Of a DNA stretch of 64,000 nucleotides, positions 56,557 to 63,163 are shown piece by piece. The notes under the pieces were generated by a model that saw nothing but the letters and a program-made list of their open reading frames with translations, did no database searches and was not told where the DNA came from. Where the stretch lies: the NCBI GenBank assembly GCA_030432295.1, contig JAUIHI010000035.1:1-64000 (forward strand), written 5' to 3'. The translations under genes and the position numbers were made by a program. This DNA is from Anaerolineae bacterium. GTDB lineage: Bacteria > Chloroflexota > Anaerolineae > Caldilineales > Caldilineaceae. How positions within the stretch are numbered: the first letter of the stretch is position 1; each line of letters begins with the position of its first letter.

Positions 56557-59133
56557 ATGACGATCCTCTACCTCTCCCTGGCCTATCTGATAGGAATTGG
56601 CGTCGGGCGTCTCCTCTGGGGCGCCGGGCTGATCGGCTGTGGCTTTCCTGTATGGCCCTGGCTGCTGCCTTTGGCGGCCCTGCCCCTGCCCTTTTTCTGG
56701 CAAAACCGACAACAGATTCGCGGCGGTCCGCCCCTGCGCTGGCCTGTGACCGCAGGTTTTACCCCGCCTGTGGCCGATTGGAACAGCGCTCTGGCCGCGG
56801 CTTTGCTTCTGGCTGCGCTCGCCGGTCTGCTGCGCTATGCCAGCCAGCCGGACCAGCCCTGCGCCACGCCGACCGATTTAGCCTATTATAACAGCCGCAA
56901 CCCGGATGGGGCAGCAGAGCAGGCGGTCACTCTGATTGGCTATGTGGACAACTATCCGACGGCGAAGAATGGCCGCCAGCAGCTAACTGTGCGGGTGGAG
57001 AGTCTGCGGGTGAATGGGGTAGACCAGCCGGTCACGGGTCGGGCGCGGTTGAGCGCCAGTGTGGAGCCTCGCTATATCTACGGGCAACCGGTGCGGGTGG
57101 AAGGGCTGCTGGTGGAGCCGCCGGTCTTTGAATCTTTCGACTACCGGGCCTATCTTGCCCGCAAGGGTGTCCACAGCCAGATATTGCGCCCCCAAGTGGC
57201 AAAAAGCGACGGCCCGAACCGGGGCAATCTGCTATTCCGCACCCTCTATGCCCTGCGCGCCCGGGGCGAGGGGGTGATCAACCGTCTCCTGCCCGAACCC
57301 TACGCCGCGCTCTCCAACGGGATGCTGCTGGGCATCGAAGCGGGCATCCCCGACGAACTCTACGAACAGTTCAACCTGACCGGGACTAGCCACGTCATCG
57401 TCATCAGCGGATCCAATGTGGCAATTGTCGCTGGTGTGGTGATGGCCCTCTTTGTGCGGCTGTGGGGACGGCGGCGTGCGCTCTGGCCCACCCTGGCCGG
57501 TATCGGCCTGTATGCCCTGCTGGTGGGTGGCGATCCCGCGGTGATGCGGGCCGCGTTGATGGGTTCGCTCTTTGTAGTGGCGACGGTCCTCAACCGCCAA
57601 AGCACCGCGCTGATCAGCCTGGGCGCGGCCTGCTGGGTAATGACGCTGCTCAATCCCCTCACCCTTTGGGATGTGGGCTTTGAACTGAGCAGCGCGGCCA
57701 CCGCGGGTCTGATTCTTTTTTCGCCGAGTTTGTCTGCGGGATTGAATCGATTGTGGCCTGGGATGGCACAAGCTGGTCATTTGACTGGCAGCGCGCTCGA
57801 AAAGGGCGGCTCAGTCGTGCGCGGTCTGATCGAAGACGGCCTGCTGGTGACATTGGCCGCTAACCTGACGACCCTTCCGCTGGTGGTCTACTATTTTGGC
57901 CGTCTCAGTCTGGTTAGTCTGCTGACAAATCTGTTGATTGTCCCGGTGCAACCTTTCATTATGCTGTGGGGAGGGGCGGGGCTGCTGGTCGGCCTGACCG
58001 GTGTCGAGTGGCTGGCCCAACCACTTCTGTGGATTCCCTATCTCTGCCTGTTGTGGACAGTGGGAATGGTGCGCTGGAGCGCGGCCTTGCCCTGGGCCAG
58101 TGTGGAGGTGTTCAGTTACGGGCTGGGCAGTCTGTTTCTGACCTATCTGCTGCTCTTTAGCTGGCACGGGCGCGCCGGGCTGGTGAAGATATTGCGCTGG
58201 CGTCCCCGAATTTCCCCGCCGACCCTCTGGCGCTGGAGCAGTGCGGTGGCTCTGCCGGCGCTGGGAATCGGCGTGCTGCTGCTCTGGCAGGTGCTGCTCT
58301 CCCGCCCGGATGGGACGCTCCATCTCTGGTTTCTGGACATCGGCCAGGGCGACGGGATTCTGATACAGACCCCCAGCGGACGTCAGATACTCATCGACGG
58401 GGGCAGCGACTCCCAGCGGCTTTTTGCCCAGTTGGGCGGGGTGATGCCTTTCTGGGATCGCTCTTTGGATCTGGTCGTCGCCACCCACCCGGATTGGGAT
58501 CATATGGGCGCACAGATCGGGCTGCCGGATCGTTTTGCCATTGAGCAGGCGCTCGTCAGCGAAAATCTGTACGAGAATGCGGATTTCGACGACTGGCGGA
58601 CCGGAATGGCGGACGCAGGGGCATCGATTGCCAGCCAGTCCCAGGGTGGATGGATCGATCTGGGCGATGGGGTGGCCCTGTGGGTTCTCTGGCCGCCGCC
58701 AGAGGAAGCGATGCCGCCGGTGGAAGATGACGACAAGAACGAACGCTCACTGGTGCTGCGGCTGGTCTATGGGGAATTCAGCGTCCTGCTCACCGGGGAT
58801 GCAGGGCTGCCTGCGGAGAAGGCGATGGCGGGTGGGGGAGAGCCTCTGCCCGCCCACATTCTGAAGGTAGGCCATCACGGCAGTCGCAGCAGCACAGGCC
58901 CCGATTTCGTTCAGGCAGTGCAGCCGGAGATCGCTGTGATTCAGGTGGGCGAGAATCGCTACGGCCACCCAGCGGAGGATGTGCTGGCTACTTTGGCCGG
59001 GCGTCTGGTCCTGCGCAACGACCTGCAGGGCCGTATTCATGTGCGCAGCGATGGGGTGCAGATGTGGGTTGAGACGGAGCGGCGGAATCCGTTGGAAACG
59101 GAGGATGTCAGTCCAGGTCGCCCTGAGGAATGA
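56557..59133 (+). CDS. comEC: ComEC/Rec2 DNA-uptake channel protein
   Basis: 858 aa. N-terminal helices and a DUF4131 region; the competence domain with FNLTGTSHVIVISGSNVAIVAG and many helices (~240-560); then a metallo-beta-lactamase-like domain from WFLDIGQGDGILIQTPSGRQILIDGG through ATHPDWDHMG to LKVGHHGSRSSTG. It moves single-stranded DNA across the membrane in natural transformation. Its last 26 bp overlap the 3' end of the opposing kinase gene, so convergent transcription may interfere. Confidence 0.95.
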   Translation: MTILYLSLAYLIGIGVGRLLWGAGLIGCGFPVWPWLLPLAALPLPFFWQNRQQIRGGPPLRWPVTAGFTPPVADWNSALAAALLLAALAGLLRYASQPDQPCATPTDLAYYNSRNPDGAAEQAVTLIGYVDNYPTAKNGRQQLTVRVESLRVNGVDQPVTGRARLSASVEPRYIYGQPVRVEGLLVEPPVFESFDYRAYLARKGVHSQILRPQVAKSDGPNRGNLLFRTLYALRARGEGVINRLLPEPYAALSNGMLLGIEAGIPDELYEQFNLTGTSHVIVISGSNVAIVAGVVMALFVRLWGRRRALWPTLAGIGLYALLVGGDPAVMRAALMGSLFVVATVLNRQSTALISLGAACWVMTLLNPLTLWDVGFELSSAATAGLILFSPSLSAGLNRLWPGMAQAGHLTGSALEKGGSVVRGLIEDGLLVTLAANLTTLPLVVYYFGRLSLVSLLTNLLIVPVQPFIMLWGGAGLLVGLTGVEWLAQPLLWIPYLCLLWTVGMVRWSAALPWASVEVFSYGLGSLFLTYLLLFSWHGRAGLVKILRWRPRISPPTLWRWSSAVALPALGIGVLLLWQVLLSRPDGTLHLWFLDIGQGDGILIQTPSGRQILIDGGSDSQRLFAQLGGVMPFWDRSLDLVVATHPDWDHMGAQIGLPDRFAIEQALVSENLYENADFDDWRTGMADAGASIASQSQGGWIDLGDGVALWVLWPPPEEAMPPVEDDDKNERSLVLRLVYGEFSVLLTGDAGLPAEKAMAGGGEPLPAHILKVGHHGSRSSTGPDFVQAVQPEIAVIQVGENRYGHPAEDVLATLAGRLVLRNDLQGRIHVRSDGVQMWVETERRNPLETEDVSPGRPEE

Positions 59134-61669
59134 CAAAAGTGATGATAGTTTCCACGCCAAGCTTGCTTTCCGCCCAGATGCTCCCCCCGTGGACTTGTAC
59201 AATGTCCCGCACCAGTGCCAGCCCCAGACCTGTGCCCCCAAACCGGCGGGTGGCAGATCCATCGATCTGGTAAAAGTCCAGCCAGATATTGTCAAGCTCT
59301 TCCGGCGCAATCCCAATCCCCTCGTCACGCACAGAGACAAAGATGGCGGGCGATTCTGCTGTCTCCTCGGCCAGAGAATCAGAAGCAAAGAGCGCGGCGT
59401 TTGCGTCAGTCTCTTCATTTTTGAACTTGTGTTGTCCGCCACGCACAGCAATTGTAATTGTACCACCTTCCGGGCTGAATTTCACTGCGTTGCTCAGAAG
59501 ATTACTGAATACCTGGTTGAGTTGGGCTGGATTGGCACGCACAAAAAGCTGACTCTCTTCACAGTCAAAGACAAACTGGTGGGGTGTGCGGCCCGCATAG
59601 TTGGGATTGGTGGCCAGGGTGCGGGCGGTTTGCAGTGCCTCCTGGGCACTCTCAATCACATTGAACTTGATCATCTCCATTTCCTGGGCGCGGGCCTGTT
59701 GATAGGCGATCAGATCGTTGATCATCGTGCGCAGGTCCTGGGCACGGTCGGCCACGATGGAGAGAAGCTCGGTTTGCTCGTCAGAGAGATCACCCGCTAT
59801 CCCGTCCATCAACAGATCTGTATAGCCGGAAATGGCTGTCAGGGGCGTGCGCAATTCGTGGGAGATGTTGCGCAGCATATCGTTCTTCACCCGGATAGCC
59901 CGGCGTAGTTCAAAATTGGTCCGCTCCAATTCGTCAGCCCGGCGTTGCTCGATCCCAAAGAGGCGGGCGGATTCGAGCGCGATCCCGACCTGGCTGCCCA
60001 GTGTCATCAGCAGTTCGACATCCCGCTGGGGATAGAAGTCGTCCGGGTCCCGTCGGCCAAAGAGCCATATACCCACAGAGCGGCCATCCAACTCGATGGG
60101 AATTACCAGCCGCACCCAATCGAAGCCAGCGGGCAGGGGCTGATCTTCTGGCCTGTTTCTGTCGGGCCGAAAGGTGCGGAAGTAGGGTTTGAACTGGTCA
60201 ATATCTTCTATTGGCAACAGCGAGGGGATCTCCGGTGTCTGTTCCGTATAGACGCGCTGTACCTGCTCATCCACCAGCCAATAGAGGGCAGACTGGCGGA
60301 TGAGCAGACTGGGCATGACCTGATTTGTCAACAGGGCGGAGAGATACGTCGGGTTCAGTGCCCGGGGGATTGCGTTGGCAAACTGCTGGACGATGTGCTC
60401 TGGTTCGTATGTTGTGCCATACACCAGCCGGTTCATAAAGCGTTCAAAGGGCGGGCGTACTGCAAAGGCTGCCACCATATAGATAGTAGCAATCAGAATG
60501 GCCACATTGGGGGTAAGCGTGAACCACTGACCAGCCAGCACGAACGCAAAGATAAAAAGCGTTGCATAGAGCATCACAAAGCTATAGGTGGTAAGCGCCC
60601 GATTGGCCCGCACCTCCTGGTCGCCCAGCCGGTGCTTGTAAAGCGCATAGGTGTAAAAAAATGAGAGGGTGGGGATGGCAAGCGTCGCCAGGAAGGTGAC
60701 GCTTGGTGACGCTGTATAGTCTTTGACAAAAATGTTGGGCACCAAATAGAGCAGAATCCCTGGGAGTAACGAGACCCCGATTCCCAACAGCATCAAATTT
60801 AATGCTGATCGTTCGGCTGGCAAGCCAGGTCGCAGGGTGCGCATCAACAAAAGCAGCAGGCTGCCGCCAATGCCGATGACCAGCGCCAGGTAGTAGGTGG
60901 ACAGGGGAACCACGCCCAGCATATTGAGCAGCGCCATCAGCCCAGCGACGACGTAGAGTACAGAAATCCACCAACGCCCCTTCAGTGGAAGCGGACTTGG
61001 CATCAGCAAATGGAGATGGAGATAGACGGGCATAATCAGCCAGGAAAGACCAATGGAGAGGTAGACCGAGCCAAATATCTGGGAAAAGGAGACTGTCCCA
61101 ATAGCAATCCAAAGACCAGTGACATAGTTTTGCAGGATGAGCAACCGCCAGCGGATATCTTTAGGGCGCAGAAAGAGGAGGACGGCTGTGCCGGCCAGCC
61201 AAAAAGGCAGGAAGATCCAAATGGTACTTAGGCCCTGTACCTGACTTAAATTCGAACGTTCTGGCATGATCCAGCTAATCTGCATAGCTGCCTCGCCTCG
61301 CACGATGTCCAGCTCTACCAGATCGCCAGCGGCAAAACCACTGAACGGCGTGACAGTTAGGTTCGAATTGTAATCCTCAAGTGTTAGCTTTTCACCGCTC
61401 TCGGGGTTGTAAATGGCGGTGATCCTATCGCCGATTTCGAGAGTATCACGTCCGGTGTTGCAATTAGTGATACTGTCAGTGGCACTATCGAGGAGACATC
61501 TTCTCGGAAAATCGGTAATATGCCAACGGCCGTTGTAGGAAAATCCTGGGTCTGGCACGAGATATACATGGCCGAGGCCATAGATAAAGCCAATCACAAG
61601 CACGGCGGCTGCTGTCAGCACGCCGGACAGGGCATCTTGGGGTAACAAAAACTTCGGTTTGACAGTCAC
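59108..61669 (-). CDS. Multi-pass sensor histidine kinase with ComP-like input domain
   Basis: 853 aa, GTG start 11 nt after the prenyl-synthase-like gene. Helix 1 (VLTAAAVLVIGFIYGLG), an extracytoplasmic PDZ-like loop (~60-135: LEIGDRITAIYN...GDLVELDIVRGEAAMQISW), then about 8-9 helices (~145-410). A GAF-like linker (~440-570) leads to HisKA (NISHELRTPLTAISGY, His near 602) and HATPase_c (NQVFSNLLSNAVKFSPEGG, DEGIGI, FGGTGLGLAL). The input layout matches Bacillus ComP, which also has a PDZ-like loop after helix 1, but the kinase core is HisKA rather than HisKA_3. No response regulator is adjacent. Confidence 0.88.
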   Translation of the reverse strand: MTVKPKFLLPQDALSGVLTAAAVLVIGFIYGLGHVYLVPDPGFSYNGRWHITDFPRRCLLDSATDSITNCNTGRDTLEIGDRITAIYNPESGEKLTLEDYNSNLTVTPFSGFAAGDLVELDIVRGEAAMQISWIMPERSNLSQVQGLSTIWIFLPFWLAGTAVLLFLRPKDIRWRLLILQNYVTGLWIAIGTVSFSQIFGSVYLSIGLSWLIMPVYLHLHLLMPSPLPLKGRWWISVLYVVAGLMALLNMLGVVPLSTYYLALVIGIGGSLLLLLMRTLRPGLPAERSALNLMLLGIGVSLLPGILLYLVPNIFVKDYTASPSVTFLATLAIPTLSFFYTYALYKHRLGDQEVRANRALTTYSFVMLYATLFIFAFVLAGQWFTLTPNVAILIATIYMVAAFAVRPPFERFMNRLVYGTTYEPEHIVQQFANAIPRALNPTYLSALLTNQVMPSLLIRQSALYWLVDEQVQRVYTEQTPEIPSLLPIEDIDQFKPYFRTFRPDRNRPEDQPLPAGFDWVRLVIPIELDGRSVGIWLFGRRDPDDFYPQRDVELLMTLGSQVGIALESARLFGIEQRRADELERTNFELRRAIRVKNDMLRNISHELRTPLTAISGYTDLLMDGIAGDLSDEQTELLSIVADRAQDLRTMINDLIAYQQARAQEMEMIKFNVIESAQEALQTARTLATNPNYAGRTPHQFVFDCEESQLFVRANPAQLNQVFSNLLSNAVKFSPEGGTITIAVRGGQHKFKNEETDANAALFASDSLAEETAESPAIFVSVRDEGIGIAPEELDNIWLDFYQIDGSATRRFGGTGLGLALVRDIVQVHGGSIWAESKLGVETIITFVIPQGDLD

Positions 61670-61680
61670 GGTTCAATCCG

Positions 61681-62667
61681 CTACATTTTTTGTTCAATCA
61701 TCTCAGCTAATGCCCCGTCGATTCCTCGTACAAATTTGACAAAGGGAGCTAACTGCATCTTCAGCAGATGCTCTATCCGCTCCCGCTGGGCCAGCTTCAC
61801 CGAATCAAGACAACTTCGGGCAGCCATCTGGCGCTGCAAAAGCTGGAAGGCGCAATAGCTGACTGCGCCTGAATCGATGAGCAATTGTTGTGCCTTGTGC
61901 AACGCCGAAAGATCGCTGGCCTGGCTTTTGTAGGCCAGAAAGTCCTCTTTTTGAGGATAGTCGGCATTCAGGCCATAGAGGAGGACTAAATTGTTGCGTC
62001 CCTGTGCCCAATCCGAGTTGGCCGGGCTTTGGAAGGCATCCTCAAGATCATCGTAGATTTGAATCGCTTCGCCAAAAAGGACCCCCACATTGTACATCAC
62101 TTCTGTCATTTGGGGCGATGCACCGCCCAGCAGCGCGCCAATTTCCAGACCGATTCCATAGAAGGGGGTGCTTTTGGCCCGCACCACCTGCCAGTAGTTC
62201 TCCTCGCCGTCCAAATTGCGCACATCCAACTCCTGACCGGCGGCTGTGGCCAGGGCCATACGATTGAGCGCGTGGGCAGCTGCGGCCCGATAGGAAGGGT
62301 CAACACTGCATTGGTCTATCAGCACAGATCCGGCGGCCTGCAAGGCCAAGGCCAGATTGGCTGTGCGCCCGATGCCAAAACGCTGGTGCGCACCCTCTGG
62401 CTCCTCATCCAGCATATCGTCCACCAGAATAATGCTCACCTGAACACAGGCCAGGGCCGCCATAGCTGGCAACACATCCGCATATTCCCCGCCAACCGCG
62501 GCACAGGCAATCCCAGGCAACTGCCAGTCCAGACGGATATCGTCCTCGGTATCCGGGAAAAGTTCCTCGACTTCACGCCAGCGGTCCATTCCAGGGACTC
62601 CAAGTATTAGCTTTCGCAATGTGGATGCCGTAATTTTTGATTCCACCAGATAGTCCTTTCCTTGCAT
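61681..62667 (-). CDS. ComQ-like polyprenyl-synthase homologue
   Basis: 328 aa from ATG 62667; an ATG at 62589 with GGAG 8 nt upstream would give 302 aa. All-helical isoprenyl synthase fold with both Asp-rich motifs, D83-D84-M-L-D87 and D206-D207-L-E-D210, plus GQELDV and KSTPFYGIGLEIGALLGG. It lacks the N-terminal GKRxRP and the RRG-x-P motif after the first Asp box (here HQRFGIGRTA), i.e. most isopentenyl-PP contacts of chain-elongating enzymes. ComQ shows the same pattern. It may use a preformed allylic diphosphate to prenylate the upstream peptide; a lipid prenyltransferase role is the alternative. Confidence 0.85.
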   Translation of the reverse strand: MQGKDYLVESKITASTLRKLILGVPGMDRWREVEELFPDTEDDIRLDWQLPGIACAAVGGEYADVLPAMAALACVQVSIILVDDMLDEEPEGAHQRFGIGRTANLALALQAAGSVLIDQCSVDPSYRAAAAHALNRMALATAAGQELDVRNLDGEENYWQVVRAKSTPFYGIGLEIGALLGGASPQMTEVMYNVGVLFGEAIQIYDDLEDAFQSPANSDWAQGRNNLVLLYGLNADYPQKEDFLAYKSQASDLSALHKAQQLLIDSGAVSYCAFQLLQRQMAARSCLDSVKLAQRERIEHLLKMQLAPFVKFVRGIDGALAEMIEQKM

Positions 62668-62782
62668 TGGTCAAGACGTAAAGCAGCATATAAATACTAT
62701 TACAAAGGGCGTCATACCTGCGAATTAGGAGAACAGGATGTGCGCTGAAAAAGGATATACTCCGACCGCCACCGTAAAGTGG

Positions 62783-62853
62783 CTTTGACAAACCGGGTTT
62801 CTGGAAGACGAATCTACGCCGGTAATGGCACAACAGAAACTCGATTTTACTGG
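62783..62853. repeat. Dispersed palindromic element, degenerate copy 4
   Basis: AACCGGGTTTCTGGAAGACGAATC and ACAGAAACTCGATTTTAC keep the order of 28083-28180 with many changes. It lies between the peptide-gene terminator and the prenyl-synthase-like gene, a 325-bp gap otherwise without coding frames. Confidence 0.4.
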
Positions 62854-62872
62854 CCAGCTTTGCTATAGCAGA

Positions 62873-62925
62873 CAAAAAAACATCAGCAGTGTAGCGCCGG
62901 GTAAGCATACGCTACACTGCTGATG
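62873..62925 (-). terminator. Terminator after the 57-aa peptide gene
   Basis: Perfect 16-bp stem: 62910-62925 pairs with 62881-62896 (CATCAGCAGTGTAGCG), with a 13-nt loop, followed on the minus strand by TTTTTTTG. It lies 68 nt after the peptide stop and 214 nt before the longest prenyl-synthase-like frame, so most transcripts should contain only the peptide. Confidence 0.8.
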
Positions 62926-62992
62926 TTTTCAGTCTGTTTGGAGATCGCCTGTGAGAAGTCCGAAGTCTCGGAGAAAACGGATTCTTGGCTTA

Positions 62993-63163
62993 GCGCCAGC
63001 CGACCCAAGAGCCTTGGCCACCGGTGTCGCTTTTGTCAGACATCTTGCGGATATCCGTCGGCGTGCTGGAGGTGGTGATCAGCTCGAAAAGCGCCAGCAG
63101 GCCATCCTTCTGCTCTGACTTCATCATGGACTGAAATTGTTCGATCGTTACCACGGCTTGCAT
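62993..63163 (-). CDS. 57-aa candidate pheromone/RiPP precursor (ComX-like)
   Basis: The ATG at 63163 has a perfect AAGGAG 6 nt upstream; the stop is TAA at 62993. An amphipathic leader-like part (VVTIEQFQSMMKSEQKDGLL, then ALFELITTSS) is followed by a hydrophilic stretch and a tail GGQGSWVGWR with Trp53 and Trp56. No signal peptide. The length (ComX is ~55 aa), the C-terminal Trp, and the position between mutS and a ComQ-like gene followed by a ComP-like kinase suggest a prenylated-Trp signal precursor. ComX sequences are too variable for homology to be claimed. Another peptide natural product is possible. Confidence 0.72.

Follow-up and report, generated by a model that had tools for sequence, protein, structure and literature searches.

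To our knowledge, communication through lipid-tagged tryptophan is known so far from Bacillus and Paenibacillus, and we know of no precursor peptide or kinase for the enzyme Ord1. ComQ requires ND/GDxxx in place of SARM, and changing the first position of this motif to D drastically lowers its activity (PMC5331326). PalQ of Paenibacillus prenylates Trp with the SARM Asp residues kept; it belongs to a single cluster, PalX-PalQ-PalP, that combines a precursor, a trans-IDS-like C-terminal Trp prenyltransferase and a histidine kinase (PMC10853753). PalQ favours Gly before the acceptor Trp, and a Gln before SARM serves Trp recognition both in PalQ and in Ord1, a farnesyltransferase that acts on free Trp (PMC13290415). 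A 2014 census found no comQXPA-like loci outside Firmicutes (PMC4008528), a later survey reported Chloroflexi with the kinase-regulator pair only (PMC8895600), and Chloroflexota go unmentioned in a 2026 review on the prenylation of peptides (PMC13290415). The initial annotation of the DNA analysed here was aware of no such system in Chloroflexota, and our searches of the open-access literature likewise found no description of prenyl-peptide signalling in this phylum; a subscription paper could exist.

The window, a stretch of 64,000 nucleotides from an Anaerolineae bacterium, had been annotated with a ComQ-ComX-ComP-like module: a peptide gene with a strong ribosome-binding site and a Trp-bearing tail, a polyprenyl-synthase homologue with two DDxxD motifs, and a sensor kinase, all on one strand without unrelated genes between them. 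The source genome is Caldilineaceae-like, with Litorilinea and Caldilineaceae assemblies as its closest named relatives. The three ORFs are present in the order peptide-synthase-kinase (Table 1), AAGGAG lies immediately 5′ of the ATG of the peptide gene, and no unrelated conserved gene separates the three at the window locus. The 322-nt spacer between the peptide and synthase genes contains a strong hairpin, which the annotation overlooked along with the W-x-x-W tail common to relatives and the mutS and comEC neighbours.

Table 1. Features of the module and its convergent neighbour (window coordinates).
Feature	Position	Strand	Size and remarks
Sensor histidine kinase gene	59108..61669	(-)	853 aa, GTG start
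Trans-isoprenyl-diphosphate-synthase-like gene, predicted peptide Trp prenyltransferase	61681..62667	(-)	328 aa
Stem-loop (22-bp stem and T-run), probable intrinsic terminator/attenuator	62876..62930	(-)	Fold, terminator scan, conserved stems
Precursor peptide gene	62990..63163	(-)	57 aa; ORF and RBS, orthologues in relatives
comEC/rec2	56557-59133		Convergent to kinase gene, 26-bp overlap with kinase gene end

RNA folding of positions 62860-62990 gave -54.4 kcal/mol (z -7.4), a value equalled by none of 200 shuffles, and a terminator-like scan match was obtained at 62884-62899. Of the 10 other loci of the family, 9 have stems of 12-30 bp in the peptide-synthase spacer, as does G059, and these stems differ in sequence; strong spacer stems are also found in part of the more distant loci. 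Rfam returned zero matches within the window. The simplest reading of the hairpin is a terminator or attenuator that yields an excess of precursor.

The module is flanked in the window by mutS upstream and by the convergent comEC. This order, mutS-module-comEC, is common to module carriers of the window's family, whereas module-free genomes of that family have mutS and comEC on separate contigs, and in other families the module has different neighbours. For these reasons, and because comEC is convergent, we attach no functional reading to the comEC adjacency and reject it as evidence for competence control.

Constraint on the 57-aa peptide (MQAVV...GGQGSWVGWR) was examined within the genus. 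The whole peptide has a pN/pS of ~0.32 (mean pS 0.60, mean pN 0.19), and mean regional values divide it into a conserved leader (TIxEFQxMMKS...TPxDVR, ~0.25), a variable stretch at residues ~44-52 (0.80 for 44-52) and the WVGWR tail (0.05). Leader and tail are thus constrained and the middle stretch is near-neutral, as would be expected of a modified signal peptide, in which a variable core lies between the leader and a fixed acceptor. The initial annotation had asked whether the tail Trp is the most conserved or the most variable part; the tail is the most conserved, and the hypervariable stretch lies next to it. A chance ORF was ruled out by the pN/pS values together with orthologues upstream of the synthase in relatives.

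Among 29 precursors, 28 have a Trp within the last 20 residues and 22 contain WxxW (WVGW, WAGW, WMGW, WQGW, WTDW, WSGW, WSVW, WEIW, WYVW, WLIW, WVMW or WSAW), and Trp is ~34 times commoner in the tail than before it. The sole precursor lacking a Trp in the last 20 residues as read is that of G320, for which decay or a sequencing error is likely, as its kinase is also split between frames. Two leader types, A (TIxEFxxLLKS...PEDVR) and B (MxxMQxFYxxL), precede this Trp-rich tail. Cys is nearly missing from the precursors, and apart from Trp the tails hold no conserved nucleophilic residue. The peptide has no significant family match in Pfam or NCBIfam, and 12 precursors searched for likeness to Nif11/NHLP leaders gave no match to a Pfam family of the NHLP clan.

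Distribution was followed in 61 related genomes, in 396 genomes of the class and in 400 genomes sampled from the phylum. Close synthase orthologues occur in 12 of the 61 relatives, with a degraded copy in G016 recovered by the synthase search, and the peptide profile matches exactly the 12 genomes with an intact synthase and no others. The kinase sensor marks the same set of genomes, except for orphan or decayed cases (G016 and G005 have orphan sensor kinases); the kinase is missing in G014 because the contig ends past the synthase, G059 has the module split across two contig ends, and G057 carries distant paralogues of the sensor. Across the class, a profile search gave matches in 29 genomes, 20 of them outside the window's family and 17 of these strong; the phylum sample added one genome, from a different Chloroflexota class. 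A small precursor ORF was found 5′ of every strong family synthase. Synthase and sensor distances are correlated over 22 loci (r 0.93, equalled in 0 of 5000 permutations), most of which is expected from shared inheritance, so that the value shows that the genes travel together and not that the proteins touch. Peptide, polyprenyl-synthase homologue and PDZ/multi-TM kinase are therefore a conserved unit, and the order and co-occurrence proposed for related genomes are kept.

Several loci depart from this layout. In G016 (L053:4022-6859) a frameshifted synthase, with no peptide detected, lies beside a kinase and a LuxR-type regulator; this is a module in decay. A second G005 kinase (L102:5985-9204), whose sensor belongs to this family too, has a response regulator next to it but neither synthase nor peptide; it is possibly a receptor for the signals of others or a remnant. 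A 4044-bp contig (G412:C635, L118) holds only kinase, peptide and synthase genes, the kinase gene running across the contig ends; the exact 124-bp overlap of its ends points either to a circle of ~3.9 kb or to tandemly repeated modules. When a plasmid collection was searched, the window synthase had no match, and a divergent relative used as query returned just weak matches to other polyprenyl synthetases. G128 has, a few kb from its module synthase, another polyprenyl-synthase-like gene (L091:3484-4371) that is strongly divergent and sits on a very long branch.

The window synthase matches Pfam PF00348 (3.6e-17) and carries both DDxxD motifs that had been read in it, within VDDMLDEEP (FARM) and YDDLEDAF (SARM). 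Its AlphaFold model (pLDDT 93.8) has the IPPS fold (Z ~30). The family was compared with chain-elongating IPPS of the same phylum and with ComQ, represented by 4 database records. Two elements for IPP binding, the GKRxRP motif and the RR (Arg-Arg) after FARM, occur in 17/17 chain-elongating enzymes, whereas they occur in 0/27 family members covering the sites and in 0/4 ComQ. One alignment row, IPPS_L035, was left out of the 17 because it is without IPP motifs and groups with NHLP-type enzymes in the tree. The source genome has two other IPPS genes, both with IPP-binding motifs. The family retains the allylic-diphosphate site. FARM and SARM are both kept, as are the Lys site and the Gln that precedes SARM; DDxxD is found at FARM in all members but one and at SARM in all, where ComQ has ND or GD (4/4). 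The Gln (Q203, Gln203) is invariant in the family, and Gln is common at this position in ordinary IPPS too.

In a maximum-likelihood tree with long branches, built with 28 family synthases and only 4 ComQ, the family forms one group (100/100) that includes one long-branch sequence of uncertain kind; the phylum's chain-elongating synthases are set apart with 100/97 and ComQ with 100/100. A plain chain-elongating IPPS is ruled out by the motifs and the tree. The initial annotation had proposed comparing the enzyme with ComQ and with GGPP synthases: it does separate from the chain-elongating side, and it separates from ComQ too, with its DDxxD SARM. From its sequence we predict a peptide Trp prenyltransferase.

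The kinase consists of a TM helix, a PDZ-like extracytoplasmic loop, a multi-TM bundle, and GAF, HisKA and HATPase_c domains. Pfam detects the last three, and in an AlphaFold model of residues 1-430 a single helix is followed by ~100 residues of beta-rich loop and then by a bundle of several helices, in agreement with the layout first described. Homology of residues 1-430 to ComP, suggested at the same time, was borne out: the sensor half aligned with two ComP proteins over 386 columns (hhalign E 9e-11), and a sensor HMM run against 854 ORFs ranked module kinases first, kinases beside NHLP-type synthases next and then ComP, with the first unrelated ORF below ComP at E 2.5. By these sequence comparisons, the sensors of the module and of ComP are truly homologous. 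A structure search with the sensor returned generic seven-helix receptors (Z ~10), which is uninformative for helix bundles. Among kinases of the genus, identity is lowest in the PDZ loop, at 52% compared with 64% in TM1 and 73-87% elsewhere.

Kinases of subfamily A, that of the window included, have HisKA, and no response-regulator gene lies beside the window kinase. In its sister subfamily B, the synthase has beside it a HisKA_3-like kinase gene, transcribed divergently, and a gene for a Response_reg-GerE (LuxR-type) regulator; they make up a two-component pair of the same class as Bacillus ComP/ComA (HisKA_3 kinase and LuxR-type regulator). Two loci on the subfamily B side of the tree, G376 and G361, lie beside polyketide synthase and acyl-ligase genes. 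ComA controls surfactin synthesis, which these neighbours recall; two cases prove nothing. G057 (L103, L104, L105, L106) and G173 (L101) carry a second, distinct set of trans-IDS-like synthases in which the IPP site is lacking; a genome has several of them, next to LuxR regulators and to kinases whose sensors belong to the family described above. A precursor upstream of a second-set synthase in G057 gave a weak match to Frankia_peptide PF14407 of the NHLP clan (5e-4). This second set looks like PalXQP-type systems in Chloroflexota.

How far, then, does the module resemble the described systems? With ComQ-ComX-ComP of Bacillus subtilis and relatives it shares an IPPS-fold enzyme without an IPP site, a small precursor with a variable core beside an invariant Trp near the C-terminus, and a homologous PDZ and multi-TM sensor kinase. 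It also differs in several respects. The peptide gene comes first and is followed by a hairpin, whereas the Bacillus-type records examined have comQ first, directly before comX; the synthase is in a separate clade with a DDxxD SARM; the tail is WxxW, the leader is unlike ComX of four plasmid loci, and the peptide has no significant match to the ComX family (Pfam PF05952 type); and the window kinase has HisKA, not HisKA_3, with no adjacent ComA. With PalX-PalQ-PalP, where PalQ was compared by published description only, the module shares the three-part cluster, the SARM Asp residues and the Gly-Trp context. The precursors differ: the leader of PalX is of NHLP type and its chain ends in Trp, while here a short leader has no Pfam match and at least one residue usually comes after the last Trp. 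Ord1 (PDB 9v4g) has the IPPS fold as well (Z 26.4 to the synthase model, 9e-11 with the family profile), and the fit of the model to canonical GGPP synthases is equally good or better. An IPPS fold lacking the IPP site beside a Trp-tailed precursor, a mark of trans-IDS-like peptide Trp prenyltransferases (ComQ, PalQ, ChrPC), is seen here.

PalX-PalQ-PalP is at least as good an analogue as ComQ-ComX-ComP. Because PalQ keeps the SARM Asp residues and yet prenylates Trp, the retained SARM counts against membership among ComQ enzymes and not against the reaction. Of the original ComQ-ComX-ComP proposal, the three-part logic stands, in gene order, co-occurrence, tail Trp, a synthase apart from elongating enzymes and ComP homology, and the functional logic of ComQXP is well supported; membership in ComQXPA is not supported, in view of the synthase clade and SARM, the unrelated leader, HisKA and the missing adjacent ComA. 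The module would work like ComQXP and PalQXP, yet lies outside ComQXPA on these points, and it looks like a new branch of lipid-tagged-Trp communication.

We propose that the locus serves signalling between cells (or of a cell to itself) by means of a ribosomal peptide that carries a lipid group, a mechanism that as a whole we regard as likely. The conserved leader of the precursor would be recognised by the IPPS-fold enzyme, which, lacking the IPP site, would take an isoprenoid (geranyl, farnesyl or the like) off an allylic diphosphate and attach it to a Trp in the W-x-x-W tail, most likely to the final one, which follows a Gly. A protease would cut off the leader; the modified tail (~last 8-14 residues, the hypervariable stretch included) would leave the cell and bind the partner kinase at its PDZ-like loop/TM bundle; the kinase would then phosphorylate a response regulator. 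The hairpin 3′ of the peptide gene would provide many substrate copies per copy of enzyme and receptor. What we observed is that the genes are conserved and co-occur, that their coding sequence is constrained, that the IPP site is lost, that the sensor is homologous to that of ComP and that a hairpin is present; we infer prenylation, with its site and chain length, and likewise processing, export, perception and the regulated targets. That the peptide is the substrate of the synthase is highly likely, and, given this, transfer of the prenyl group to Trp is likelier still; that the kinase senses the product is very likely; and true quorum sensing is somewhat favoured over self-sensing or another use. 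The Gln of PalQ/Ord1 and the Gly-Trp preference of PalQ match the invariant Q203 and the GW tail, which we count in favour of the mechanism. Counted against it are the DDxxD SARM, in view of the effect of Asp on ComQ, though PalQ keeps Asp residues there; three precursors of family f24 without the first Trp; the lack of a dedicated protease, exporter or adjacent regulator for the window kinase; and the nature of the genomes compared, every one an assembly, with uncultured organisms among the sources.

Other functions can be imagined for the same three genes. The peptide might be a prenylated RiPP with antimicrobial or membrane-active properties, its kinase an autoregulatory sensor as in lantibiotic clusters and signalling secondary, as the RiPP-like three-gene cluster, the membrane activity that prenylated Trp peptides can have (PMC13290415) and the two loci beside polyketide synthase or acyl-ligase genes would allow; since immunity, transporter and protease genes do not recur beside the module, and the sensor is of ComP type with its fastest divergence in the ligand loop, we consider this unlikely. 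Even less probable is a role of the synthase in making small isoprenoid molecules (lipid, quinone or terpenoid), by chain elongation or otherwise, with the peptide acting as a subunit or small regulator. The PF00348 match, the IPPS fold and the complete DDxxD motifs at FARM and SARM would suit such an enzyme, whereas the IPP motifs are gone in all members while the genome's two other IPPS genes keep them, the clade is separate (100/100), and the peptide co-occurs exactly and conserves its Trp tail.

Finally, the enzyme could modify a residue other than Trp, with W-x-x-W serving as a recognition element only. The modification site is not readable from sequence, but characterised trans-IDS-like prenyltransferases all target Trp (PMC13290415), and the near-absence of Cys and of any other conserved tail nucleophile makes this very improbable.

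More tentatively, and with slightly less than an even chance of being right, the module may represent an independently assembled, phylum-specific pheromone language, in which IPPS-like enzymes were recruited apart from ComQ, the precursors are of new families whose two leaders look unrelated and which have only the W-x-x-W tail in common, an ancestral PDZ/TM sensor is shared with ComP, possibly both Trp residues are prenylated, and quorum sensing extends across mostly uncultured Chloroflexota. If the proposed signalling mechanism is true, communication by prenylated-Trp peptides would be much older or would have been assembled more than once, many new Trp prenyltransferases and their natural substrates would become usable as peptide-lipidation tools, and a mostly uncultured phylum would have a defined signalling language.
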